A stretch of 64,000 nucleotides of DNA from Candidatus Cloacimonadota bacterium (GTDB taxonomy: Bacteria > Cloacimonadota > Cloacimonadia > Cloacimonadales > Cloacimonadaceae). The translations under genes were made by a program, and so were the position numbers. Location: the NCBI GenBank assembly GCA_020532085.1, contig JAJBAV010000003.1:1-64000 (forward strand), written 5' to 3'. The notes under the pieces are model-generated. The model did no database searches and was not told the DNA's origin. It was given only the letters and a program-made list of their open reading frames with translations. Shown one piece after another: positions 25,143 through 40,327 of this stretch. The first letter of the stretch is position 1, and every line of letters starts with the position of its first letter.

Positions 25143-25958
25143 ATGAGAAAGAGCTTCTCTAAAGTATTACCGCTGATCGTGCTGATGAGCATGCTGCTCG
25201 TTGGCTTGGCCTACGCGCAAACAGATACAACAGCCGCCGCGACCACCGATACCAGCATAGCCGCAGCGGTCACTGAACCTGCAGCCGAAACCGCCCCGGT
25301 CGAAGAGAAATCCTCCGGCCTCAAAGGCGTTGCCGAATTCCTGTTCGGCCGCTCCCTGGTGAAGCAGTTTCTGGACGGCGGCTGGGCCATGTGGCCGATC
25401 CTGTTCGTGTTCATCTATGGCCTGGCCTACGCCATCTGGAAATTCATCTCCCTGATGTATGCCAAGATCAACCTCAACGACTTCCTGAACAAGATCCTGC
25501 CCCTCATTAAGGATAAAAAGATCAAAGAAGCCACCGAACTTGCCAAGAAGACCCGCGGCCCAGTGGCGGCAGTGGTCTATGCCGGTTTGCTCAAGGCTGA
25601 CCGGGGCGTGGACGCCGTGGAAAAAAGCATGGAAAACGCGGCCATGATCGAGATGTCCTACCTTGAAAAAGGTTTTGTGGAAATGACCTCGACCATCACT
25701 CTCGCCCCCATGTTGGGATTTTTGGGTACGGTTGCCGGTATGGTGGTCGCTTTCGACGCCATCGCCAAAGCCCGTTCTGTGGATGCCACGATCGTGGCGG
25801 AAGGTATCAAGATCGCCCTCATCACCACTCAGTATGGTTTGATCGCAGCCATCCCGATCCAGTTGTTGTACAATATCTTTACCACCATGGTGGACGGCTT
25901 GGTCATCGACATGCAAAGAGCCTCAGAGAAGGTCACAGAAGCCCTCATCGAGTCTTGA
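25143..25958 (+). CDS. exbB: ExbB/TolQ/MotA-type proton channel protein
   Basis: 271 residues from the ATG at 25143 (GGAGG upstream); an in-frame start further 5' lies inside the receptor gene. An N-terminal hydrophobic segment ending AYAQ looks like a signal peptide, then an Ala/Thr-rich linker. Membrane segments lie at ~83-104, ~186-205 and ~229-250, the last two with the channel pattern TLAPMLGFLGTVAGMV and LITTQYGLIAAIPIQ. With ExbD it converts proton flow into TonB motion. Confidence 0.9.
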   Translation: MRKSFSKVLPLIVLMSMLLVGLAYAQTDTTAAATTDTSIAAAVTEPAAETAPVEEKSSGLKGVAEFLFGRSLVKQFLDGGWAMWPILFVFIYGLAYAIWKFISLMYAKINLNDFLNKILPLIKDKKIKEATELAKKTRGPVAAVVYAGLLKADRGVDAVEKSMENAAMIEMSYLEKGFVEMTSTITLAPMLGFLGTVAGMVVAFDAIAKARSVDATIVAEGIKIALITTQYGLIAAIPIQLLYNIFTTMVDGLVIDMQRASEKVTEALIES

Positions 25959-25971
25959 TAAGGGGGGAACA

Positions 25972-26445
25972 ATGAAAGTTACCCGCAAGAGAAAGCGCAA
26001 GGCCGATATTCCGACCGCGTCCACCGGCGATATCGCTTTCCTGCTGATCGTCTTCTTCATGTCGACCACCAAGTTCGACGTCAAGGAAGGCGTAAAAGTT
26101 CAGTTGAACAAAGCCGTAACCCAGGAACAGCAGCAAACCACCCAGATCCAGCTTACGGACAAGGAAATGACCCGGCTCGAGATCATGGAAAACGGTTATC
26201 TGAAAGTTAATGAAGCAGAGCCGCGCGCCTACAATGACGACGACCTGGACAAGCTGATCCTGACCAAGATCGAAGAAAGGGAAGCGCTGAACCGCACCCT
26301 TACCGATCCCGAGCTTAAATCCACGAAGATGCTGTTTCTGGTAAAAACCAACCCTGAAGCCAAATACAGCGAGATGGTGAGGCTGGTGGACCACCTGGTC
26401 ACTTACCGTGACCGGGCCACCATATCCATCTCGACAGCGATATAG
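25972..26445 (+). CDS. exbD: ExbD/TolR family protein, first copy
   Basis: 157 residues. A basic N terminus (KRKRKADIPTASTGDIAF) leads into one membrane segment with the conserved Asp (Asp in TGDIAFLLIVFFM) that carries protons. The rest is a periplasmic domain ending with VDHLVTYRDRATISISTAI. It is paired with a second ExbD gene 10 bases downstream, as is common in Bacteroidota-type TonB clusters where two ExbD chains join one ExbB. Confidence 0.9.
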   Translation: MKVTRKRKRKADIPTASTGDIAFLLIVFFMSTTKFDVKEGVKVQLNKAVTQEQQQTTQIQLTDKEMTRLEIMENGYLKVNEAEPRAYNDDDLDKLILTKIEEREALNRTLTDPELKSTKMLFLVKTNPEAKYSEMVRLVDHLVTYRDRATISISTAI

Positions 26446-26455
26446 GAGCAAAGCA

Positions 26456-26881
26456 ATGGCCAAGATAATGACGAAAAAAAAGGCGGATGTGAACATCCCA
26501 ACCGCCTCAACCGGTGACATTGCCTTCCTGCTTTTGCTCTTCTTCATGGTTTCCACGGTCTTCGTTCAGGAGCGTGTTTTCTGGGTGCAGAGGGAACGTT
26601 TCCCGATGGCTTCTGAAAACATCGAAAGAGTCTCCCGCAACGAGTCCGCGACGATCTACATCACGCAGAAAGAAGAAATCCTGATCGACGACTTTCCCCG
26701 TTCGGTGGACGATGATTCGATCGTCGACACCATGAAGGCCAAAGCCCGGGAAATCCCCACCCTGCAGGTTTGCTTCAGAACGGACAAAGACACCCGCTAT
26801 CAGGCTGTGCGCGATGTAATGATGCGCCTGCAGGACGCGGACACGCGCAACGTGGTCTTTGAAACCCAAAGAAAGCTCTAA
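26456..26881 (+). CDS. exbD: ExbD/TolR family protein, second copy
   Basis: 141 residues from the ATG at 26456 (GGAGCAAAGCA upstream). It shares the core PTASTGDIAFLL followed by FFMVSTVF with the first ExbD but differs in the periplasmic domain, which ends DVMMRLQDADTRNVVFETQRKL. The conserved membrane Asp is present. The two ExbD proteins probably form a heteromeric stator with ExbB. TonB follows after 10 bases. Confidence 0.9.
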   Translation: MAKIMTKKKADVNIPTASTGDIAFLLLLFFMVSTVFVQERVFWVQRERFPMASENIERVSRNESATIYITQKEEILIDDFPRSVDDDSIVDTMKAKAREIPTLQVCFRTDKDTRYQAVRDVMMRLQDADTRNVVFETQRKL

Positions 26882-26891
26882 GAGGTGAGAT

Positions 26892-27542
26892 ATGGCACTC
26901 AGATCATATGACTGGAAAGACCACGCCAACGCCCAATTCAGCAAGGCGCTGGCCCTGGCCATAACCCTCATGCTTTTTGCCTTCCTGGTGACACCCAGGA
27001 TGGAATCGCAACATAGCAAAGAAGAAACCGCCATGGCCGAAATGGCCGAAGCGCCACCTGACCAGCGTGAAAAGGAAGAAGACGTGCAGGAGCAGGAGAT
27101 CGAGATCGACATCCCGGTGTTCAGCGAAGAGCTGGCCACCGAAGACACTCCCGAGCTTGCGGAACAAAGAGCCCAGGCCTTGCAGATCTTCGGAAACTAC
27201 CAAGCCACGACCAGCAGCTCGCTGCAGGCCAGTGATGACGAACTGCCTCCGGGCTTCGAGCCCTATGAAGACGCTCCCGTTCCCATCGGCGGCATCAACC
27301 CTGTCTATCCGGACTTCGCCAAGCGGGCCGGGGTGCAGGGCACCGTGGTGCTGGAAGTGGAGGTTTACAAAGACGGCCGGGTGGGCAACGTGGAGGTTCA
27401 GAGATCAGTTCAGTCCGGTCCCGGGGGTTTGGATGAAGCGGCGATCGCCGCCGTCAAGGCCGCCCGGTTCCAGCCCGGCAAGATGAACGGCAACCCTGTG
27501 AACACACTGGTTATCCTACCTCTTGAATTCAGAATAAATTAA
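26892..27542 (+). CDS. tonB: TonB energy-transducing protein
   Basis: 216 residues. A cytoplasmic N terminus, one membrane anchor (~19-35, ALALAITLMLFAFLV) and a Glu/Pro linker (REKEEDVQEQEIEIDIP) lead to a TonB C-terminal domain (~125-216: GGINPVYPDFAKRAGVQGTV, VYKDGRVGNVEV, AAIAAVKAARFQPGKMNG). That domain contacts the receptor's TonB box. Residues from IPVFSEELA onward are copied almost exactly, 133 residues with one change, in the lipoprotein encoded at 36828-37832 on the other strand. Confidence 0.93.
   Translation: MALRSYDWKDHANAQFSKALALAITLMLFAFLVTPRMESQHSKEETAMAEMAEAPPDQREKEEDVQEQEIEIDIPVFSEELATEDTPELAEQRAQALQIFGNYQATTSSSLQASDDELPPGFEPYEDAPVPIGGINPVYPDFAKRAGVQGTVVLEVEVYKDGRVGNVEVQRSVQSGPGGLDEAAIAAVKAARFQPGKMNGNPVNTLVILPLEFRIN
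27111..27509 (+). repeat. 399-base inverted duplication, arm 1 (tonB)
   Basis: This part of tonB is near-identical to 37259-36861 on the opposite strand. Over the stretches compared by eye only isolated base differences were seen (for example AAAGAGCCC versus AAAGGGCCC). The arms are about 9.3 kb apart in inverted orientation. Confidence 0.85.
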
Positions 27543-27561: not shown

Positions 27562-30500
27562 ATGAAGTTTAACAAATTAGCGTTCTGCCTGCTGCTGGCG
27601 TTGCTGATCTCCGGAACAGCTTTCGCGGCGATGGCGGAATCTTCATCAGGGACCAAGAAACTGGACCTTTCCCTTTACCATAATGTGGGTAACATTTGGC
27701 TGCGGGTGAGTAACTACGGTTTCTTCGGCTCTGGAGACGACGTGGTGCCTCAATACCCGTCGCTGGAGTACCCCGGTGGCAGTGGTATCGACTACCTCTA
27801 CCAGGGCGCGCTCTGGTTCGGCGCCAAGAAATACCGCCGCGACGATGCCGGCAGAAAACTCTACTGGAGAGCTGTGAATCCCAGCGCCGACAGCACCTCG
27901 ACGGTCGCTGAAGGCACCGCGGGCTGGCAGCCCTGGATGAAACCAGTGGTGGACACCCTGGTCACCGTCGGCTTTGATGGCGACGCGGACCTCTATGAGT
28001 TCCTGCCTGCCTACAATCCTCTGGTGGCAGGTAACGCCGAGGCTGTGGACATGTACAACGCCTACAATTCCCTGGACGGGATCGCCACCGCCAGCACCCG
28101 CTTTCATAAACGGGGCGAAGATGACGACGGTGACGGCATCATCGACGAAGACTTTGTAGGCTACACCTTCCCGCTCAGGACGGCCAACGAATTGCCCAGC
28201 CAGTTCCAGTCTTTCGGCGGGCAGTACATCGCCAATACCCAAAACTTCAACATCATCAATGAAGGCACCAATTCCGAGATCTGGTTTCCCTTGGGCTTCA
28301 TGGAATTGTCCGATACATCACATAACACTTACGACTTTTCCAATCCTTACGACGACGACGGTGACGGCCAGGTGGACGAAGACGGAGCTCCTGTTTCCGA
28401 GCAGGACTTCATTTCCTTCTACTACGACTACTGCCCCCTCGGCACCGTGGGTGACAGGGATCTGGGCCAGTCCAGAAGCACCAACCGTCACTATCCGCTC
28501 AACGTGCGCGTGAGGCAGATGTCCTACCAGTGGAGTTACGACTACATCAAGAACCTGGTTTATGTGGAATTCAACGTTACCAACATGAATATCGCCACCC
28601 AGGACAGCCTGTTTGATTGCGCCATGGGCATCTACATGGACTGCGACACCGGCCCCCAGAGCATGGGCTCGGAAAAAGCCGCCGATGACAAATCCGGCTA
28701 CGTGAAGGGTGAAGGCTACGAATTTGCCTACACCTACGACGCCGACGGCGACGGCGGACTCACCACCGGCCGCGTGGGCGCCCGTGTTTGCACCCCGGAC
28801 CCCGAACAGCTTCAGTTCCATTGCTGGTACTGGAAGGTCGGAGACGGTCCGGATGACTCCAACCCCTACAACTGGAACTTCTCCCCGCAGCGCACGGCCA
28901 ACGAGAAATACTGGCTGCTGACGGGGAGGAACCCCAATGAGACCAAATACACGCCCCTGCGCCCCGAGCAGGCCGACCAGACTGAATGGGAACAGCCCAC
29001 CCCCAACGACACCCGGTTCCTGTTCTCCTTCTACGGCGACCAGGAAGGTATGACCAATCCCTCCGAAAGTTCCTGGAACCTCGCTCCCGGCAAGACCATG
29101 AAGATCGTGGTCGCCGTGTTCCCCGGTGACGACCAGGAAGACCTCAAACGCACGGCGCGCTGGGCCAAGGACATCTACGGCAAGCCCCAAACCCTCACCA
29201 CTGTGATATTGCCGGATACCTTCCCACACTACAATCCGCCGGAACCCCCGGAAATCCCCAAACTCTTTGCTGAAATGGCCGACAACGGCAACCGCATCGA
29301 CCTCTACTGGGATAACCGCGGCGAATTCTCCTACGATACCAAGACCGTTTCCAGCGCCGTCATCGGCTGGCAAAACCCCTCCAGTCCCCAACTGGAACCA
29401 GGCTTGGATTCCGATCCCAACGCGGTTGACTGGAGCGGCTATCCCGTCGAGTTCCAGCCGCCGGCTTCGGCCGACTCTCTCGCGTTCAACATGAACGCCA
29501 CCGTCAATCCTTACACAGCCCACAGGCTCCGCCACGATTTCCAGGGCTACACCACCTGGGGCAGAAGCGGCAGCGGATCGCAGGAAGACTGGACCATGAT
29601 GGAACGCTGGGACAGGATCGAGACTCCCCAGGACCTGCTGGATTACCAGGTGAACTTCAACCATCCGAATGATTCCCTGCATGTGAATTACGGCGGCTAT
29701 CTGGGTATCGACAAAGGCCTTCCCAACCGGAATGCCTGGGCGAATACCGACGATTACGGCCTTTATACGGTTCTGGATGAAAACTATCATTACTCCCCCA
29801 ATCCCGCAGATGTGTTCTATGGCTGGCCGATCTACAACCCTGCCGTGGAATGGAGCGAGGACCTTGAGGTTGAGGCGCAGGCCATAGCAGATGCTAACGC
29901 GACCCTGCCGGATTTCATGATCAAGAACCTTCAGGCCCGCCTCTTCAAGCATCCGGACATGCGGCCGGAGATCTTTGACGAGTTGTACGACTCCAAGATG
30001 ATCCCCCTGCCGGGACATGGCGGCCAGGTGAACATACCGGGCAGCACTCCCCCCACAACGGATGAACTGGCCACCCTGGCTGAACTCAAGGATGAAAGGC
30101 TGGCCCGCAGATATTACCGCTCCGCCATCATCAACCCCCGCAAGGGTGTGGAATACTACGTGGCCGTAACTGCTTACGACCGCGGCATCCCCTCCAACGA
30201 CCTGAACTTCCTGGAAACCGGACGCGACGCCGATGCCAACATGAAGATCTTCTTCCCCGGCACGCTCGCCCAGGAATCCATGGACAACATCTACGTGGTG
30301 CCCAATCCCTACATCGGCAGAAGCAGCTTCGACGGCCGCCGCGACAACGACGAAAAAGGCGATAAAAGCCGCCGTCTCTGGTTCATAAATCTGCCCATGG
30401 AATGCAAGATCCGCATCTACACCCTGGCCGGCGACCTGGTTCAAGAACTGGATCACAACGGCGCTTACCAAGCCGATATCATCACGGTTTCCAAAGCCGC

Positions 30501-30648
30501 CACCCAGGGCATCTCCGCCAGCGGCATGCACGACTGGAACCTGCTGTCCAAGCACAATCAGATCATAGCGCCCGGAGTGTATCTCTACTCCGTGCAAAAC
30601 AAGGCCGACAACAAGATCAAGGTCGGCAAGTTCGTCATCATCAAATAG
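27562..30648 (+). CDS. large secreted protein with Asp-rich calcium-type motifs and C-terminal sorting domain
   Basis: 1028 residues with a signal peptide (KLAFCLLLALLISGTAFA). The N-terminal part contains several calcium-loop-like strings: DDDGDGIIDEDF, DDDGDGQVDEDG and DADGDGG. The C terminus (VVPNPYIGRSSF, IRIYTLAGDLVQEL, APGVYLYSVQNKADNKIKVGKFVIIK) is a FlgD-like or type IX-like sorting domain. The body has no recognised catalytic signature. It lies 19 bases after tonB and 10 bases before a PorV-like gene, so it is probably the surface cargo or binding partner of this TonB locus, comparable in position to SusD-like proteins but unrelated by sequence. Confidence 0.75.
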   Translation: MKFNKLAFCLLLALLISGTAFAAMAESSSGTKKLDLSLYHNVGNIWLRVSNYGFFGSGDDVVPQYPSLEYPGGSGIDYLYQGALWFGAKKYRRDDAGRKLYWRAVNPSADSTSTVAEGTAGWQPWMKPVVDTLVTVGFDGDADLYEFLPAYNPLVAGNAEAVDMYNAYNSLDGIATASTRFHKRGEDDDGDGIIDEDFVGYTFPLRTANELPSQFQSFGGQYIANTQNFNIINEGTNSEIWFPLGFMELSDTSHNTYDFSNPYDDDGDGQVDEDGAPVSEQDFISFYYDYCPLGTVGDRDLGQSRSTNRHYPLNVRVRQMSYQWSYDYIKNLVYVEFNVTNMNIATQDSLFDCAMGIYMDCDTGPQSMGSEKAADDKSGYVKGEGYEFAYTYDADGDGGLTTGRVGARVCTPDPEQLQFHCWYWKVGDGPDDSNPYNWNFSPQRTANEKYWLLTGRNPNETKYTPLRPEQADQTEWEQPTPNDTRFLFSFYGDQEGMTNPSESSWNLAPGKTMKIVVAVFPGDDQEDLKRTARWAKDIYGKPQTLTTVILPDTFPHYNPPEPPEIPKLFAEMADNGNRIDLYWDNRGEFSYDTKTVSSAVIGWQNPSSPQLEPGLDSDPNAVDWSGYPVEFQPPASADSLAFNMNATVNPYTAHRLRHDFQGYTTWGRSGSGSQEDWTMMERWDRIETPQDLLDYQVNFNHPNDSLHVNYGGYLGIDKGLPNRNAWANTDDYGLYTVLDENYHYSPNPADVFYGWPIYNPAVEWSEDLEVEAQAIADANATLPDFMIKNLQARLFKHPDMRPEIFDELYDSKMIPLPGHGGQVNIPGSTPPTTDELATLAELKDERLARRYYRSAIINPRKGVEYYVAVTAYDRGIPSNDLNFLETGRDADANMKIFFPGTLAQESMDNIYVVPNPYIGRSSFDGRRDNDEKGDKSRRLWFINLPMECKIRIYTLAGDLVQELDHNGAYQADIITVSKAATQGISASGMHDWNLLSKHNQIIAPGVYLYSVQNKADNKIKVGKFVIIK

Positions 30649-30658
30649 GGGAGGAACA

Positions 30659-31690
30659 GTGAAAAAACATACCATACTGATCGTCGCTCTGGCTCTGATG
30701 CTGTTGCCTGGCCTTATTTCCGCCAAGCCTTTCGGCAAGGTGGGAACCGCGGCCTTGCAATTCCTCAAACTGGGCGTGGACGCCCGCGCCATCGGCATGG
30801 GCGAAGCCTTCACCGCGGTTACAGACGACGTTTCCTCTGTTTACTGGAACCCCGCCGGGCTTGCCCCCGCCTTCGAAAATCAGGTTCTGGCCTCTCACAC
30901 GAACTGGCCCGCCGGCATCATGCACGATTTCGTGGCCGGCACCTATACCAACGGCCCCTCCACCTTCGCGGCCTACGGATCCGTGCTGCACATGGACAAC
31001 ATGGACATCACCGATGAGGAGACCTTCGGGCCCACCGGCGAGCAATTCACCAACAGCAGCATGGCCTTTGGCCTCAACTACGCGCAGCAGTTCACCAACA
31101 AGTTTTCCGCCGGCATCGGTGTGAAATACCTGCGGGAAAACCTCTACACCTTCTCCGTGAACAGCTACGCCTTCGACGTCGGCTCCATCTACAACACCGG
31201 CTACAGAAACATCAAGATCGGCATGGCCCTGCGCAATTTCGGGCCCGACATCCGCTATCTGGTGGATGACGATGAAGACGGCGCCAACGATGAAGATCCC
31301 TTCGACCTCTTCGACAACGACGGCGACGGCCTGATCGACGAAGACGGGCAGGAACTCGATTCCAAGATACCCATGAGTTTCTCCCTGGGCATCTGCGGCG
31401 ACATCATGCGCACCGAAACCTCCCACTGGATAGTTTCGGCCCAGCTCGACAACGTGATCGACCGCATGGAAACCTGGAACCTTGGCACGGAATACAAGAT
31501 GGGCAACCTCTATCTCCGTGGCGGCTACCAACTAAACTACGATACCAACGGCTTCAGCGCCGGGGTCGGTTACCAGATCCCCACCCGCTTTGCCATCATC
31601 AATATCGACTATGCCTATACGGACATGGGCGCGCTGGCAGAAACATTCCTCAAAAGCGCCCACCGCCTGTCGATCAAATTCCGCTATTAA
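30659..31690 (+). CDS. PorV-like outer-membrane barrel with acidic calcium-type insertion
   Basis: 343 residues starting at GTG with GGGGAGGAACA upstream, signal peptide to ~22. The UPF0164/PorV motif GVDARAIGMGEAFTAVTDD followed by VSSVYWNPAG is clear, and the C terminus ends in an aromatic residue (LSIKFRY). At about residues 200-230 there is an unusual Asp-rich insertion (VDDDEDGANDEDPFD, DNDGDGLIDEDGQE), the same type of motif as in the upstream secreted protein. It may serve as a secretion shuttle or anchor for the cargo encoded next to it. Confidence 0.8.
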   Translation: MKKHTILIVALALMLLPGLISAKPFGKVGTAALQFLKLGVDARAIGMGEAFTAVTDDVSSVYWNPAGLAPAFENQVLASHTNWPAGIMHDFVAGTYTNGPSTFAAYGSVLHMDNMDITDEETFGPTGEQFTNSSMAFGLNYAQQFTNKFSAGIGVKYLRENLYTFSVNSYAFDVGSIYNTGYRNIKIGMALRNFGPDIRYLVDDDEDGANDEDPFDLFDNDGDGLIDEDGQELDSKIPMSFSLGICGDIMRTETSHWIVSAQLDNVIDRMETWNLGTEYKMGNLYLRGGYQLNYDTNGFSAGVGYQIPTRFAIINIDYAYTDMGALAETFLKSAHRLSIKFRY

Positions 31691-31721
31691 GCAAATGACC
31701 CTATAAATAATGGAGGTAAGA

Positions 31722-33935
31722 ATGAAAAAAACCTTATTGGTCATATTAACGCTCGGCTTCATCTTCTCCTTCGCGTTCGCGAAGGAAATGATGCCCGCCA
31801 CAAACCTGAAGGAAATGCCGGTTCTCATGGAGGACCAGGTCCCCGTGGATCCCAGCACCGTGTTTCCCACCGTGCAGACCCGCACCGCGCCGGAATATAC
31901 CTTCTCAAAACTGCCCACTGCCATCATCACCAACTACTACGACTACATGATCGGCAGCTACAACGGCCTGCCCCTCAGGATCATCCCCGATGTAGCCGGG
32001 GGCGGATATTTCATGAGCTATCACGGCCGGCGCCAGCCCACCAGCACCCGCCGCGCCTTCTACGCCTACATCGACGCCCAGGGCAACGTGGTGAATAACA
32101 ACGAGATCACCAGCGTGCAGAACAACGAAGGCTACGCCACCGTGTCCGTGGATCCCGTTTCCGGGAAACCCCTCTACGCCTGGCACTGCAACACAGACGC
32201 AGATGACGAGTATGAGGTCCAGTTTGCCTCCGATGCCTTCATTGCCGGCATCTCCGGCCTCTTCAACGACCTCCAGGTCACCATCGACAACCCCTACACC
32301 ATCACCTCCCCCAGCGGAGTGACCACCACCGCCAACGAGTTCATCTGGCCCACGGCTCAGATCGGACCCTCACCGGTGGCCGGCAAGAGAAGGGTGTACC
32401 TGGCCGCCAGGAACTCCGTCTATGAAACCTTCGGCCCCTCCGAAAACCTGATGGTCGCCTTTGCCGATTTCGACGGCAACGACGTCGAAAACGGTGTGGC
32501 TTTGACCTGGAGCCAGGTCTCCATCCCCGAGATGAACGACTGGAACGTTGACGACCAGTGGCGCCGTCCCTTCCACGCCATCACCACCGACAACGCCGGC
32601 AATGTTTACTATGCCGGTTACCACTTCGCCACCGAAGCCGACGGCACCACCAACATCCGCGAAGCCGACTTGGATGTCTTCGTCTGCCCGAACTACGGCC
32701 AGGGCACCTGGACCCGCGTGAGCGGCTACAGCTGGATCCCTTCCTGGAACCCGATCGGCCAGCAAGGCCAGACCAACGGCTATTTCGTGGACGACAGCAG
32801 CATCGGCTATGCCGATTCCCTGCTTGTCTGGGCCATTGCCAACGCCGCCCACATCAATGCCGGAGTGGACAACAACGGCCGCATCCACGTTTTGGGAACC
32901 TGGGCCCAATCCACCAAAGATGGCGGATACTGGCAGGACTTCCAGGTGGTGAAAGAATTCGTGTTCGATCCCGCCACCCAAGACTTCTCAGTTAAAGACG
33001 TGTTTCCACAGAAGAACCCCGCCGACACCTTCAACCAGTGCTTTGTGCCTTGGGACATGGAACCGCCCTGGGGTACTCCAGAGTATTTCCAGGCTGACGA
33101 CGGCAACTACTACCTGACCATCGCTGCCGCCGGCGGCGGGCATCCTGGACTTAAATGGCCCTTCCCCCACTGGGATACAGCGGCCCACGGTGATGCCATG
33201 CTCTTCCACTACAACAACACCAAGGTCACCAATGCCAACGACCAGGGCATGATGGCCGCTGTCTGGCAGGACGCTCAGCGCGCCCGCTGGTTCAACTTCG
33301 AATCCGATACCGATTACGCCGCCTACGCCAACACTCCCGAGATCTACATTTCAGTTTCTCCGGACAACGGCGACACCTGGAGCGAGCCCATCATCATCAA
33401 CAACGTGGAAACCACCCAATTCTCCGGGATCAAACCCATGTGGGTCTATCCCGCGGATGAAGTTATCTACACCGGCATGCAAGGCCAGAACATGGTTGGA
33501 AAGCTTGGCGTGATGTTCTACAACGACTTCACCTGGGGTTCCAACGCCATCACCCCTTCCTACCATCCCACCCCGGATGGCGGCGAAGTGATGTTCATGG
33601 AACTGCAGATCGTCTTCCCGCTTGGCTCTGCCGACGGCGAAAACACTGCCCCCGCCATCACCCGCATGCTGCATCAGAACTACCCCAACCCCTTCAATCC
33701 TGAAACCACCATCAGTTTCGATCTGCCCAAGGCCGGCCCCGCCAACCTTTCCGTGTACAACGTGAAAGGCCAGCTGGTGAAGACCCTCGCGGACGGAAAC
33801 CTGGATTTCGGCAAGCAGAGCTTCGTCTGGAACGGCACCGACAACAACGGTCGCAACGTTACCAGCGGCATCTATTTCTACCGCCTCACTGCCAACGGCA
33901 GCGTGGAGACCAAGAAAATGATGCTGATGAAATAA
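31722..33935 (+). CDS. secreted surface protein with type IX sorting domain (paralogue 1)
   Basis: 737 residues. The ATG at 31722 with GGAGG upstream is preferred to the ATG at 31710 because it opens a normal signal peptide ([20 protein letters not shown]). The body has beta-propeller or sialidase-like features such as [17 protein letters not shown]-type Asp-box strings ([14 protein letters not shown]). The sorting domain spans [20 protein letters not shown] to KKMMLMK. It shares its N-terminal block ([19 protein letters not shown]), core and C terminus with the next gene, so the two arose by tandem duplication. A terminator follows at 33957. Confidence 0.8.
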
Positions 33936-33956
33936 GACTTCGCCAGATAAACAATC

Positions 33957-33985
33957 ACCCGGGTGCTCGCGCCCGGGTTTTTTTT
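33957..33985 (+). terminator. rho-independent terminator
   Basis: ACCCGGG (33957-33963) pairs with CCCGGGT (33972-33978), followed by an uninterrupted T run to 33985. It ends the receptor-to-paralogue 1 transcript. Confidence 0.85.
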
Positions 33986-34131
33986 GTCCGCGCACAAGGA
34001 AGTCCCAACTGATTTTTTGCTTGACAATTATTGACGGGCTGACGAAGCTACGTTCTTGGTGGCCTCGGCCCTTATAAACTGGCAGGCCGCTGATTCATAG
34101 GTTGGATAAGTTACTTGTAATGAGTTTTTTG

Positions 34132-34142
34132 CCCCCCCCCCC
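34132..34142 (+). repeat. poly(C)11 tract upstream of surface-protein gene
   Basis: Eleven consecutive C preceded by a run of six T and one G lies 53 bases before the ATG at 34196. Homopolymers of this length are prone to slipped-strand changes in length, or to sequencing error. Confidence 0.9.
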
Positions 34143-34195
34143 TCGTGGGAAAGGCCCCCTCTGTTAACCCAACAACAAAAGATATGGAGAGAACC

Positions 34196-36373
34196 ATGAA
34201 ACGCATTTGTTTATTCATGCTGGTCCTGGCCCTTCTGCCAGCCTTGGCGCTGGCCGAGACCATGGTCCCGGGACCCCAGCCCAAACCCCTGCCCAGCCCC
34301 CAGGGAATGCGGATGCCGGCACTGCGCGACGCACCCGCTTACACCTTCACAAAACTGCCCACCGCCATAATCACCAACTACTACGACTACATGATCGGCA
34401 GCTACAACGAACTGCCCCTGGCAGTGATCCCTGATGTGGCCGGTGGCGGATATTTCATGACCTATCACGGCCGCCGCCAAGCCACCAGCACCCGCCGCGT
34501 GTTTTACACCTATCTGGACCCCGCAGGCAACGTGATCAACAACAACGAGATCACCAGCGTCCAGAATCATGAAGGTTTTCCCGCTTTGTCGATCGATCAG
34601 GTTTCCGGAAAACCCCTCTATGCCTGGCACGCCAATGCCGACGCGGATGCCCAGAACGAAACCCAGTTCACTTCCGACGCCTTCATCGCCGGCATCTCCG
34701 GCCTCTTCAACGACCTTTCCCTGGCCTGCGACGCCCCCGTGATCATTGATCCGCCCAACGCCGATCCCACTTCTGACAATGAATTCATCTGGCCCTGCAT
34801 GGTGATCGGACCTTCGCCGGTGGCCGGAAAACGCCGCGTCTATGTGGGCATGCGCAACTACATCTCCCACGCCTTGAATGGCAGCCCCAGCGAAAACATG
34901 TACATCTCCTACGCCGACTTCAACGGCGACGATATCGAGATGGGAACCGCGTTGAACTGGAGCCACACCACCATCCCGGAACAGGACGCCTGGAACCACG
35001 ACACCGTGGAATTCCGCCGTCCCACCGGAGTCCTCACCACGGATAACGCCGGCAACCTTTACTGGGCCGGCCACCACGTGGCTTACGACGCCGCCGACAA
35101 CGACCTCGGCGAAGCCGACATGGACGTGTACGTTTGCCCGAACTACGGCCAGGGTACCTGGACCCGCTACAGCGACTTTGCCAACATCCCCACCATCAAT
35201 CCCAACCAAGCCCCCGGCGACACCACCGGATATTACACCAATCCCGATGAAGGCGAAATCCCTTACGGAGACAACGGCGAAATGTACTGGGGCCTCTCCA
35301 ACTCCGGTCACTTCAACGTTGTGGTGGGCCAAGACGGCAAGATCCACGTTCCCGGCATCTGGGCCCTGCAGGCCTACAGCGGATACTACTATCCCGCCCT
35401 GCAATTCGTTAAGGAATACGTTTACGACATCAACACCCACGAGTTCGAGATCCGCGACATCTATCCCCAGCAGGATCCCAGCGACACCTTCAACGGCACC
35501 TTCACCCCCTGGGACATGGAAGCGCCCTGGGGCGAGGTGGACCAATTTGCCGATGACGGCGCTGGTGGCTTCTTCCCCGCGATGTTCACCGACTGGCCTT
35601 TCCCGCACTGGGACCAGGCCGCCCACACCGACTTGATGTTCTTTCACTATAACAACATCAAAGTCTCCGAGCCCAACGATCATGGCATGATGGTTTGCAT
35701 CTGGCAGGATTCAGACCGTGCCCGGATGTTCAACTACTACTCCGATACCGATTACGCCGCCTTCGCCCAAACCCCCGAGATCTACATCGCCGCGTCCCCC
35801 GACAACGGCAACACCTGGAGCGAGCCCATCTCCTTGAACAATGTGGAAACCCCGCAAATGGCCGGCATCAAGCCGATGTACGTCTATCCCGCGGACAAGG
35901 TGATCTACACCGGAATGCAGGGCGCGCACGAGGTCGGCAAGATCGGCGTGATGTTCTACAATGATTTCACCTGGGGCTCAAACGTGAACGCGCCCGCCTA
36001 CCATCCCACCCCGGATGGCGGCGAAGTGATGTTCATGGAGCTCGAGATCGTCTTCCCGCTCGGCTCCGCCTCCGACGATCCGACCGTGCCCTCCGTGGCC
36101 AGCCTGCTGCTGCAAAACTACCCCAACCCCTTCAACCCCGAAACCACCATCAGTTTTGACATGCCGGCCTCCGGGCCAGCCCGCCTTGAAATCTACAACG
36201 TCAAAGGCCAGCTGGTCAAAACCCTGGCTGACGCCAACCACGATTTCGGCCGCCACGCCTACGTCTGGAACGGCACCGACAACGGTGGGAACAGCGTCTC
36301 CAGCGGCATCTACTTCTATCGCCTGGCCACCAACGGCCACAGCGAAAGCCGCAAGATGATGCTGATGAAATAA
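34196..36373 (+). CDS. secreted surface protein with type IX sorting domain (paralogue 2)
   Basis: 725 residues. The ATG at 34196 follows GGAGAG, and the protein opens with signal peptide MKRICLFMLVLALLPALALA. It parallels the preceding gene along its length ([53 protein letters not shown]) and has the same sorting domain ([40 protein letters not shown]). Asp-box strings suggest a sialidase-like propeller fold without evidence of catalysis. It is separated from paralogue 1 by a terminator and a poly(C) tract, so it is probably transcribed on its own. Confidence 0.8.
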   Translation: MKRICLFMLVLALLPALALAETMVPGPQPKPLPSPQGMRMPALRDAPAYTFTKLPTAIITNYYDYMIGSYNELPLAVIPDVAGGGYFMTYHGRRQATSTRRVFYTYLDPAGNVINNNEITSVQNHEGFPALSIDQVSGKPLYAWHANADADAQNETQFTSDAFIAGISGLFNDLSLACDAPVIIDPPNADPTSDNEFIWPCMVIGPSPVAGKRRVYVGMRNYISHALNGSPSENMYISYADFNGDDIEMGTALNWSHTTIPEQDAWNHDTVEFRRPTGVLTTDNAGNLYWAGHHVAYDAADNDLGEADMDVYVCPNYGQGTWTRYSDFANIPTINPNQAPGDTTGYYTNPDEGEIPYGDNGEMYWGLSNSGHFNVVVGQDGKIHVPGIWALQAYSGYYYPALQFVKEYVYDINTHEFEIRDIYPQQDPSDTFNGTFTPWDMEAPWGEVDQFADDGAGGFFPAMFTDWPFPHWDQAAHTDLMFFHYNNIKVSEPNDHGMMVCIWQDSDRARMFNYYSDTDYAAFAQTPEIYIAASPDNGNTWSEPISLNNVETPQMAGIKPMYVYPADKVIYTGMQGAHEVGKIGVMFYNDFTWGSNVNAPAYHPTPDGGEVMFMELEIVFPLGSASDDPTVPSVASLLLQNYPNPFNPETTISFDMPASGPARLEIYNVKGQLVKTLADANHDFGRHAYVWNGTDNGGNSVSSGIYFYRLATNGHSESRKMMLMK

Positions 36374-36438: not shown

Positions 36439-36463
36439 CCATGTTTTCCCGCCCGGCCCCAAG

Positions 36464-36536
36464 TATCAATACGGTATCAATACGGAATCATTACGGATGA
36501 AATCCGTATTGATTCCGTATTGATACCGTATTGATA
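36464..36536. repeat. 35-bp near-perfect palindrome built of three ATCAATACGG units per arm
   Basis: The left arm 36464-36498 and right arm 36502-36536 are complementary with one mismatch and a 3-base loop. Each arm carries three successive copies of ATCAATACGG or a one-base variant. The A/T-rich composition differs from the flanks. Confidence 0.9.
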
Positions 36537-36827
36537 TTGGGAGCCAGCTGGGGTTGAAATGGGTTTGCGTGATACGTTTTTTCGCAATAGTGAAGGGATT
36601 TCCCTGAGACCAGTTGATCGCGAGCAAAGGCTCCACCCCAGGCTTGAAGGAGAGCGCGAATTACTGCTGGCGTGCCTGGCACGGCCAAATTGGGCCAATA
36701 CACCCGAGAGGGCAGAAACCAACCGGTGCTCTACAATTGTGGGGGGCCGAGTTTGCTGATGCAATTCAGAGTTTATAGCGCTGAATGGGACTGGTCAAAT
36801 CGATGCCACAAGGCTCTCGCCTCAAAA
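36537..36827. other. non-coding gap with no recognised feature
   Basis: Nothing convincing is seen here. A 66-codon open frame at 36559-36759 lacks a ribosome binding site and any recognisable motif. It lies between the palindrome and the end of the TonB-like lipoprotein gene. Confidence 0.4.
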
Positions 36828-37832
36828 CTATTTCAATTGGAATTCAATGGGCAGGATAAACAGAGTGTTGACGGGGTTGCCGTTCATCTTGCCGGGCTGG
36901 AATCGGGCGGCCTTGACGGCGGCGATCGCCGCTTCATCCAAACCCCCGGGACCGGACTGAACTGATCTCTGAACCTCCACGTTGCCCACCCGGCCGTCTT
37001 TGTAAACCTCCACTTCCAGCACCACGGTGCCCTGCACCCCGGCCCGCTTGGCGAAGTCCGGATAGACAGGGTTGATGCCGCCGATGGGAACGGGAACGTC
37101 TTCATAGGGCTCGAAGCCCGGAGGCAGTTCGTCATCACTGGCCTGCAGCGAGCTGCTGGTCGTGGCTTGGTAGTTTCCGAAGATCTGCAAGGCCTGGGCC
37201 CTTTGTTCCGCAAGCTCGGGAGTGTCTTCGGTGGCCAGCTCTTCGCTGAACACGGGAATCGGAATATCCCCATCCCCTCGGGAATAATATCCGCCCCCGG
37301 AGGCATACATCGTTGTGTCGATCCCATCGCCCGCGTATTCGCCTTCCCCGGCATCATCCTCCGGAAAAACGGTTTTGCCCTTGCGTTTGCCTTGCCAGTC
37401 GGTCACTCGCGCCCGCACCATGCTGATCGCGCGCGGGCCCAGGTATTTCTGCACCTGGCGGGCGGATTCCAAGGCCCGGGGATGCCCGTTGGAAGCGGCC
37501 ACCAGGAACCAGAAATAGCTTTCCTCCACTCCGGCACGGGCGGTCCTGTGTTTCAGATAAGTTGCTCCCAGACGGTATTGCGCGTCCAGATGGCCCAACT
37601 GAGCCGCCTTGTGATACCAGGTGAGGGCTTGGTCGAGGTCCACCTTCGTTTTCAGCCCCAGTTCATGGCTCTTGCCAAGCTGGAACTGCGCTTTGGGGTC
37701 ATTCGCCCTGGCCAGCTTCTCCAGCTTGGCCAGGGAAAGCAGGGCATAGTTTCCGGGTTTTTTGGCACAGGAAGCCAGCAGGCCGCCCAGAACCACTCCC
37801 AGCAAGACGAGAACGATAACTGAATTTTTCAT
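36828..37832 (-). CDS. Sel1-repeat lipoprotein fused to a copied TonB C-terminal domain
   Basis: 334 residues. The lipoprotein signal MKNSVIVLVLLGVVLGGLLA ends in LASC (Cys22). Residues ~44-130 hold Sel1/TPR-like repeats (DPKAQFQLGKSHELGL, DLDQALTWYHKAAQLGHLDA, YFWFLVAASNGHPRA). After a Gly/Tyr-rich linker, residues from IPVFSEELA to NTL copy TonB of this window with one change in 133 residues, including the receptor-binding domain. There is no N-terminal transmembrane anchor of the TonB kind; the only membrane tether is the lipid. It lies downstream of the BtuF/BtuC-like genes but has its own promoter. Whether it works as a TonB is unknown. Confidence 0.8.
   Translation of the reverse strand: MKNSVIVLVLLGVVLGGLLASCAKKPGNYALLSLAKLEKLARANDPKAQFQLGKSHELGLKTKVDLDQALTWYHKAAQLGHLDAQYRLGATYLKHRTARAGVEESYFWFLVAASNGHPRALESARQVQKYLGPRAISMVRARVTDWQGKRKGKTVFPEDDAGEGEYAGDGIDTTMYASGGGYYSRGDGDIPIPVFSEELATEDTPELAEQRAQALQIFGNYQATTSSSLQASDDELPPGFEPYEDVPVPIGGINPVYPDFAKRAGVQGTVVLEVEVYKDGRVGNVEVQRSVQSGPGGLDEAAIAAVKAARFQPGKMNGNPVNTLFILPIEFQLK
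36861..37259 (-). repeat. 399-base inverted duplication, arm 2 (lipoprotein)
   Basis: Partner of 27111-27509. Identity fades just after the codons for NTL, where the two genes diverge, and before the codon for the first Ile of IPVF. Confidence 0.85.
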
Positions 37833-37883: not shown

Positions 37884-38804
37884 TTATTTGCGCAACATCA
37901 GCCAAACGAAGAAGGGGCAACCCACAGCAGCGGTGATTACACCCACGGGCAGTTCAATGGCGGCGATGTTTTTGGCGATGAGGTCACCCAGCAGCAGGAA
38001 GATGCCTCCGGCGGCGAGAGACCAGAGATAGACCCTTTTTTGCCCGGAAGGCACGAAAAAACGCACCACGTGGGGGATGATGAGGCCCACGAAACCGATG
38101 ATGCCGGCGTAGGAGACAGTGATTCCGATAAGCAGCGAGGTGAGGAAGAAGATCTCTTTGCGCACGCGGGAAACGTTGATGCCCACGCTGCCGGCGTAAA
38201 CGTCGCCCCCGCTCATGATGTCCAGGGCCGGGGCACGAAACCAGAGCCAGGCCAGGATGAGCAGCGAAAATCCCATCAGCACCAGGAAAAAGCTCCACTC
38301 ACCCCGGGTGAAGATGTGGCCGAGATTGCCCATCAGGGTACCCAGGATGATCATGGTGTCCTGCTGGAAAAGGTACATCACCAGCGAGATCCCGGCCGCG
38401 AAAAACATGCCGGCGATCACCCCGGCGATCAGCAGCCGGCTGCGGTCGAAGCTGCCTTTTTTCTGGGCCAGGCGCCAAACCAGCAGCAGCGTGGCCACCG
38501 CGCCGATGAAACCGCCCAAGGGCATCAACAGAGTGAGTCCCAGCACGCCAAAGAGGATGGCGCCGAAAGCCGAGCCGGAGGAAATTCCCAAGATGTAAGG
38601 CTCTGCCAGAGGATTGGCCAGCATCAGTTGATACACCGAGCCTATCCCGGCCAGGGCCATGCCGGTGAACACAGTGAGGATCAGCCGCGGCAAGCGCAGT
38701 TCGGTTACTATGTTCGCGTCCGGGCCGCCGCCAAAAAGATAGAAGGCCACGATCAGAACTCCGGCCACCCCCAGCAGAAGCGCGAACACCCGGCCCCGCG
38801 TCAT
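37884..38804 (-). CDS. FecCD/BtuC family ABC transporter permease
   Basis: 306 residues with about nine to ten membrane segments. The family hallmarks are RLPRLILTVFTGMALAGIG near the N terminus, NPLAEPYILGISSGSAFGA, the cytoplasmic coupling region with LDIMSGGDVYAGSVG, and GIIGFVGLIIPHVVR. BtuC/FecCD permeases import B12, haem or ferric siderophores with a cognate ATPase. Its start directly follows the stop of the binding-protein gene. The ATPase gene expected next is absent here. The B12 assignment is favoured by context but siderophore import is equally possible from sequence. Confidence 0.85.
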   Translation of the reverse strand: MTRGRVFALLLGVAGVLIVAFYLFGGGPDANIVTELRLPRLILTVFTGMALAGIGSVYQLMLANPLAEPYILGISSGSAFGAILFGVLGLTLLMPLGGFIGAVATLLLVWRLAQKKGSFDRSRLLIAGVIAGMFFAAGISLVMYLFQQDTMIILGTLMGNLGHIFTRGEWSFFLVLMGFSLLILAWLWFRAPALDIMSGGDVYAGSVGINVSRVRKEIFFLTSLLIGITVSYAGIIGFVGLIIPHVVRFFVPSGQKRVYLWSLAAGGIFLLLGDLIAKNIAAIELPVGVITAAVGCPFFVWLMLRK

Positions 38805-39656
38805 CTATTCCCCTCCCGGATAGATCAGCCGGTGCAGGTTCCGCAGTCCTTCCAGGGTGCGCGGGGTGGCCTGTTGGATGAGGTCGGGATCGAGATCGGA
38901 TTCGAAATAGACGCGCCGGTCGCGGAGGGCGGGGATGTCCTGCCAGCCTTTGCGGGCCAGGATGGAGTCCAGGCTGTCGCGGGAATAGCAGATGATGATG
39001 TCTGGCCGGGCCTGGACCACCGCTTCGGGGCTAACGCGGGCGTAGTCGCGCTCGAGTTCGCTGAAAATGTTGTCACCGCCTGCGGTTTCGATCACTTCAC
39101 CCACAAAGGAGGCGTCGGAAACGCTCATCAGGGGGTCGCGGTAAATCTCCAGATAAACTTTGGGACGGTCCAGTCCCGCTGTCTGGGCTCGCAGGGCCGC
39201 GATGCCACTGCTCAGGCTGTCGGCCATCGCTTTGGCCTCCGCGGGTTTGCCGATCAGGTTTCCTATCTCGAGCACCACGCGGGGCAGGTCGTCCAGCTTT
39301 TGGGGATAGATCTGTGTCACGCTGAGGCCCATTTTGGCCAGATCAGTGGCGAGGGCTTCCTGCTCCAGGGCGGAGCTGAACACCAGATCCGGTTTCAGGG
39401 CCAGGATGGCTTCCTTGCTTACGGCTCCGAAATTGCCCACTTTTTCGATCCCGGCAAGTTCCGGCGGATAGTCGCATTCCTGGGTGACACCCACCATCAG
39501 GCCGGCACCGCCCAACGCGGCGACGATCTCCGCCACCTCCGGAGAGAGGACCACGATCCGCTTCCGCCCTTGCGCCTCTTCCCCACTGCCACAAGCGCCG
39601 GTGATCAGGATAAGCAGCAGCAACAGGGTCCCGATCAAGCCAGCGGCAGGTCTCAT
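38805..39656 (-). CDS. BtuF-like periplasmic binding lipoprotein of an ABC importer
   Basis: 283 residues from the ATG at 39656; the longer upstream open frame is spurious because it runs through the L,D-transpeptidase gene. A lipoprotein signal ends ITGAC. The class III binding-protein layout is clear: RIVVLSPEVAEIVAALGG, VGVTQECDYPPELAGIEKVGNF, EAILALKPDLVF and the bridging helix, then VYLEIYRDPLMSVS and RPDIIICYSRD. It captures a chelated metal or cobalamin in the periplasm and hands it to the adjacent permease. The ATG overlaps the upstream stop by one base (TGATG). Confidence 0.85.
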   Translation of the reverse strand: MRPAAGLIGTLLLLLILITGACGSGEEAQGRKRIVVLSPEVAEIVAALGGAGLMVGVTQECDYPPELAGIEKVGNFGAVSKEAILALKPDLVFSSALEQEALATDLAKMGLSVTQIYPQKLDDLPRVVLEIGNLIGKPAEAKAMADSLSSGIAALRAQTAGLDRPKVYLEIYRDPLMSVSDASFVGEVIETAGGDNIFSELERDYARVSPEAVVQARPDIIICYSRDSLDSILARKGWQDIPALRDRRVYFESDLDPDLIQQATPRTLEGLRNLHRLIYPGGE

Positions 39657-40327
39657 CAATTCAAGATGTCCACACGGATCTTTGAGGGATCGTTCAGCCA
39701 GGCAACCTCTTCCCTGATCTCCGTGATGTCTTTGCTGTAGAGGCGGATGCAGCCATGGGAAACGAATTTGCCGATGGAGGAGGGGCTGCTGGTACCGTGG
39801 ATGCCGATCCCGGTCCAACTTTTTCCGGAGAAGGTGCCGGAGCGGGTGTTCACGGCAAAAAACCAGGGCCCATAGACGCCAGGCCCGCTTTTTCGGCCAG
39901 TTTCCGGAGAAGTGTAGCGCCATTTGCTGGAAGCGCTGATGGAATCTATCTTGAAGTGTCCTTCCGGCGTGGCCAGGTCGCCGATCCTGGATTTGTCCTT
40001 GTTGTTTTTGCCCGTGGCCACGGGGTAGGTTTTGAGCAGCACGCCGTCCTTGTATAGATGAAGCTTGTGGTCGGTTTTCTTGATGATAATGTAGTAACCA
40101 TCGGTGATGTGGCGCGGCTTGCGGTTTTTCCAAGCCTCCAGGCTGTCAGTATTGGCCGGAAGCACGCTGAGAGCGCCATCCTCAGTTACCAAACCGTTTT
40201 GCGCCTGAACCGTAGTGGCTTTCTCCGCCTTGCCGGTGGAATTTGCCGGCTGGCCCCACGCGACTGCCGAAAACAGTAACAAAAGCAGCATGGTCGCCAT
40301 GATCTTGCAGCTGGTCAGTCGATTCAA
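39656..40327 (-). CDS. L,D-transpeptidase (YkuD domain)
   Basis: 223 residues, probably starting at TTG with GAGAGG 5 bases upstream; the next ATG is at 40300. It has a signal peptide. The YkuD catalytic motif is GIHGTSSPSSIGKFVSHGC followed by IRL with Cys193 as nucleophile, preceded by the strand region YYIIIKKTDHKLHLYKDG. These enzymes cross-link or modify peptidoglycan in the periplasm, or attach lipoproteins to it. Its coupling to the BtuF-like gene looks coincidental rather than functional. Confidence 0.88.
   Translation of the reverse strand: MNRLTSCKIMATMLLLLLFSAVAWGQPANSTGKAEKATTVQAQNGLVTEDGALSVLPANTDSLEAWKNRKPRHITDGYYIIIKKTDHKLHLYKDGVLLKTYPVATGKNNKDKSRIGDLATPEGHFKIDSISASSKWRYTSPETGRKSGPGVYGPWFFAVNTRSGTFSGKSWTGIGIHGTSSPSSIGKFVSHGCIRLYSKDITEIREEVAWLNDPSKIRVDILN

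Follow-up and report, generated by a model that had tools for sequence, protein, structure and literature searches.

We found that the TonB_C domain of S1T, our working name for the open reading frame at 36828-37832 (minus strand), is a mosaic, in which a core nearly identical to that of the resident tonB gene is bounded by much older divergence. Our preferred reading, to which we give a probability of roughly 60%, is that S1T serves as an accessory TonB-domain lipoprotein that is not energised, arose as an older fusion and had its core converted by the resident tonB. The window analysed is a 64,000-nt stretch (contig JAJBAV010000003.1:1-64,000) of GCA_020532085.1, a MAG of Candidatus Cloacimonadota bacterium (Cloacimonadaceae; 2.8 Mb, 98 contigs, ~99% complete).

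TonB_C is usually taken to mark an energy transducer. The C-terminal domain (CTD) of TonB binds the TonB box of TonB-dependent transporters (TBDTs) and can dimerise (PMC9022066), and the N-terminal transmembrane (TM) helix binds the ExbBD motor (PMC12204202).

Results

The resident tonB (26892-27542, plus strand; 216 aa) is a canonical one by its ORF, Pfam, hydropathy and synteny. It is the last gene of a TBDT-exbB-exbD-exbD-tonB cluster (exbB, exbD, exbD at 25146-26881, plus strand; Pfam) and encodes an N-terminal hydrophobic TM helix (about residues 14-38), a linker and TonB_C, the only domain that Pfam finds in it. Besides this one tonB, the genome encodes four plug-domain transporters.

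S1T encodes 334 aa from an ATG start (ORF, Pfam and AlphaFold2 model). The segment at 37767-37832 reads as a lipoprotein signal peptide with the lipobox LLASC, in which Cys22 is followed by AKK (so that +2 is not Asp); its type II assignment comes from motif and hydropathy only. Sel1 repeats follow at about residues 28-150 (37383-37751; Pfam PF08238, 9.7e-10; model helices 28-150; Foldseek), and TonB_C lies at 36834-37073 (PF03544, 2.6e-20; Foldseek), all on the minus strand. An earlier note on this DNA had described the N-terminal part, a LASC signal and Sel1 repeats, as having no counterpart in tonB. Indeed, Pfam detects Sel1 in S1T only, and the two genes show no similarity upstream of their shared stretch or past both stops. 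The note had also envisaged a TonB-like domain tethered by a lipid and unable to couple normally to ExbBD, with which the sequence agrees: the lipobox is present, and hydropathy finds no TM helix or other hydrophobic segment in mature S1T (maximum KD19 0.5), the sole hydrophobic segment being the cleavable lipoprotein signal.

The AlphaFold2 model (mean pLDDT 75.5; domains mostly 82-95) supports a predicted architecture of a Sel1 solenoid and a TonB-CTD fold with a disordered linker between them. Foldseek matched the Sel1 part to LpnE/LceB/AlgK and the C-terminal part to TonB CTDs including the BtuB:TonB complex 2gsk, the fold being that which the E. coli TonB CTD adopts when complexed with BtuB. 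AlgK and MotX, which are periplasmic or lipoprotein Sel1 proteins, share with S1T an exported Sel1-type helical scaffold but have no TonB_C. The C-terminal domain of S1T is practically identical to that of the resident TonB; however, unlike this energy transducer, S1T has a lipoprotein signal and Sel1 repeats in place of the N-terminal TM helix and lies outside the exbBD cluster.

Whereas the resident tonB is linked to exbB/exbD, S1T is placed 9 kb off, after btuC. Immediately upstream on the same strand are genes for a BtuC/FecCD-like permease (37884-38804) and a BtuF-like binding protein (together 37884-40133, minus strand; ORFs and genus orthologs), names that come from our reading of the sequence. 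The S1T start is 51 nt from the permease stop; a scan called no sigma-70 promoter ahead of S1T, and a TTGACA is visible within the gap. This position behind a B12/iron-type permease gene weakly hints at a role in uptake.

The earlier note had reported that 133 residues (from IPVF to NTL) differ at one position between S1T and tonB, and that about 399 matching bases lie on opposite strands. Both statements held: 132 of the 133 residues are identical, the sole change being A to V in YED[A/V]PVP, and the 399-nt stretch has 8 mismatches in an inverted repeat that was also detected independently (27111-27541 and 36829-37259; 431 nt, 96%). The repeat sequence has exactly two matches in the genome. 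Nucleotide alignment of the two genes revealed a feature that the note had passed over, namely that mismatches gather towards both ends of what the genes share: of the 8, the core has 3, with 2 more at the 5′ margin and another 3 at the 3′ margin. We read the mismatch blocks from a codon alignment that included 12 tonB orthologs from the genus. S1T and tonB differ there at six positions in 12 nt at the 5′ edge, at three in the 380 nt that follow, and at 12 (6 of them synonymous) in the final 43 nt ahead of the stop. The 380-nt block (36874-37253, minus strand; 377/380 identical) corresponds to 27117-27496 (plus strand) in tonB, which we read as the donor tract. At synonymous sites the core has diverged by 0.022 and the 3′ tail (36831-36873, minus strand) by 0.92, the latter value being an imprecise guide to age because the tail offers only about 45 nt and about 11 synonymous sites. 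The contrast between core and tail is strong (Fisher test, p 8.8e-6 for synonymous sites and p 1e-10 for all sites). A near-identical tract is thus flanked by older divergence in homologous sequence, with a clear 3′ boundary and a 5′ boundary of a few codons, where those for IPV differ synonymously (ATT CCC GTG versus ATC CCG GTG).

Such uneven divergence, with an old tail and a new core, indicates that S1T owned a TonB_C end before its core was replaced. It supports overwriting of the core by gene conversion from tonB, and the fusion looks older than its near-identity with tonB would imply. Could the C-terminal half of tonB instead have been copied recently and directly onto a Sel1 lipoprotein that previously had no TonB domain? 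The identity of the core and the existence of relatives without the fusion would fit, but one block copy should diverge evenly, and neither the mismatches in the tail nor the synonymous changes in the IPV codons conform to this; we consider such a recent fusion unlikely. The genome also holds no other source for the tail, since its TonB_C domains number two. Therefore, where the earlier note had offered recent copying or ongoing gene conversion, conversion is supported, and simple recent copying of the entire C-terminal half is not.

The likeliest direction of conversion is from tonB into S1T, and four features support it well. First, the gene order of the exbBDD-tonB cluster is conserved across the genus. 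Second, the N-terminal part and the tract of tonB are about equally distant from the ortholog in the closest relative, G002 (dS 0.69 and 0.61, respectively), which argues against import of the tract into tonB. Third, the tonB product ends in EFRIN, matching the genus pattern (K/R-L/I-N; EFK(L/I)N), whereas the EFQLK end of S1T deviates. Finally, at the single replacement in the tract, tonB and its closest ortholog have Ala codons, and the GTT of S1T is derived.

To the other side of S1T the window contains T9SS-type genes, and the Ton and T9SS-like genes are stably linked in the genus: after the exbBDD-tonB cluster, a large secreted protein gene, porV and two T9SS-type sorting-domain proteins follow in conserved order (27562-36373). 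The last two (31710-33935 and 34145-36373) are tandem paralogues with stretches up to 81% identical, and their number varies, from one copy in some relatives to at least three in G002. A palindromic repeat at 36459-36550, made of three 10-13-nt units (ATCAATACGG-like) plus their complements, has at least 40 copies in the source genome and many in G006, G008, G010 and G012, and was undetected in six further members of the genus; in the same slot, G003 has a hairpin of like layout and other sequence.

Seven genus relatives (G010, G003, G008, G005, G009, G011 and G004) have btuF-btuC followed by T9SS-type genes on the opposite strand and then, where contigs suffice, porV, the large secreted protein gene and tonB. 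In all seven the S1T slot holds 0.1-0.8 kb of non-coding DNA instead, with repeats and short frames and no remnants of S1T. S1T is also absent from G002, in which the two halves of the locus are on separate contigs. The conserved flanks bear on the concern that S1T is an assembly artefact. Inverted, near-identical repeats of ~400 nt are hard for short reads, and in a short-read MAG of 98 contigs they might be misjoined or collapsed. However, since the gene order on either side of S1T is that of the relatives, a misjoin would have to have restored synteny; moreover, the 9.3-kb segment between the copies is in the ancestral orientation, and the copies retain distinct 5′ parts, tails and internal differences. 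An artefact is thus very improbable.

The earlier note had pointed to the same fusion, similarly diverged, in distant relatives as a sign of old age. Searches with the Sel1 part against the genus, order and phylum, and a scan of 84,980 species genomes that may omit the window's own or very near genomes, revealed no ortholog of the fusion. Neither is there a close homologue of the Sel1 part in 125 phylum genomes, the best distant matches having 29-43% identity. S1T, which is known from a single genome (one MAG), is best read as a lineage-specific gain, by transfer or by local fusion. Horizontal import of the whole gene from an unsampled close relative with a like tonB, with conversion before or after transfer, is a plausible route, if somewhat short of an even chance. 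The absence of a close Sel1 homologue from the phylum genomes is in its favour, as is the divergence of the tail, which is comparable in size to the G000-G002 distance (0.6-0.9); the tail lies about as far from tonB as does the tonB of the closest relative. Yet the composition of S1T is ordinary (GC3 0.70-0.74 versus 0.70-0.80 nearby), and no mobile genes were seen beside it. Import and our preferred reading are compatible.

A PF03544 survey of 50 family genomes showed that most have one canonical tonB plus extra TonB_C proteins; we inspected 20 chosen frames, of which the majority do not belong to the canonical tonB set. In G050, an exported protein (L141 46-759) has a type I signal peptide, two Sel1 repeats and TonB_C. 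It resembles S1T in being exported and in the order of its modules, but has no lipobox, two clear repeats and a short linker without the genus-specific tonB linker; it is a fusion of independent origin. G054 encodes an ankyrin-TonB_C lipoprotein (L145; ISAC), and G047, G018, G016 and G017 encode short TonB_C proteins whose lipoboxes are either strict or relaxed; the LMAC of G047 alone passed the motif test, and the others were judged by eye. G050 also has a DUF2059-TonB_C protein, and G065 a triple TonB_C protein. These family proteins (L142-L155, including L145) share with S1T a TonB_C on an exported or lipidated carrier, but differ in having other N-terminal modules and in not being near-identical copies of a resident tonB.

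The frames also showed TonB_C in further settings: a serine/threonine protein kinase-TM-TonB_C protein in G056 (L153 1035-2573) and a caspase-like-TonB_C protein in G052 (L154 1193-2494), the kinase and caspase labels being readings of the sequence. In G047 (97% complete), where the survey detected no canonical tonB, the only TonB_C found was in a short lipobox protein of 136 codons (L155 2268-2678).

These examples suggest that TonB_C behaves as a mobile module in the family, often without the motor-binding helix. They also qualify the earlier note's view of S1T as an unusual topology. The lipid tether is real as far as the sequence goes, but proteins with TonB_C behind a signal peptide or lipobox recur in the family, and a second, independent Sel1-TonB_C fusion exists. 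In the open-access literature searched, we found neither Sel1-TonB fusions nor a lipid-anchored TonB.

Discussion

In our preferred reading, a Sel1 lipoprotein gene that already had a TonB_C end would have arrived between the btuFC-like and T9SS-substrate genes in the source lineage. Gene conversion would then have overwritten its TonB core from the resident tonB, so that S1T and TonB would display one TonB-box-binding surface. The 431-nt inverted repeats might also allow inversion of the intervening 9.3-kb segment.

S1T would be lipidated at Cys22 and would probably end up in the inner leaflet of the outer membrane, as predicted by the +2 rule, which is proteobacterial and may not hold in this host. 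Its C-terminal domain may bind either TonB or the TonB boxes of the few TonB-dependent transporters that the cell has, and its Sel1 repeats may recruit a partner. Since S1T has no TM helix, it could not be driven by ExbBD and would thus act as a dock, competitor or brake rather than as a transducer. Our best functional guess is that S1T, anchored in the outer membrane, binds TonB boxes or partners of TonB but does not energise them. That it is an outer-membrane TonB decoy, whose receptor-binding face conversion keeps identical to that of TonB and which is a brake or dock for TonB-dependent uptake, is a more specific proposal that we regard as a long shot. Alternatively, S1T may be a dispensable passenger without any role related to TonB, such as a Sel1 scaffold with a peptidoglycan-binding TonB_C. 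Peptidoglycan binding has been proposed for the TonB CTD (PMC9022066), and the occurrence of S1T in one genome would suit a passenger; however, its frame and domain are intact, and TonB_C has been recruited repeatedly and independently to secreted proteins in the family, which makes this alternative rather improbable.

Since TonB_C is carried, in S1T and in several relatives, by exported proteins and lipoproteins that have no motor-binding helix, the annotation 'TonB' would be wrong for them. A natural, lipid-tethered TonB tip that matches the cell's own would also make it possible to ask cleanly how the C-terminal domain behaves in the absence of pulling. The S1T mosaic also indicates that gene conversion can give an older fusion a brand-new look.
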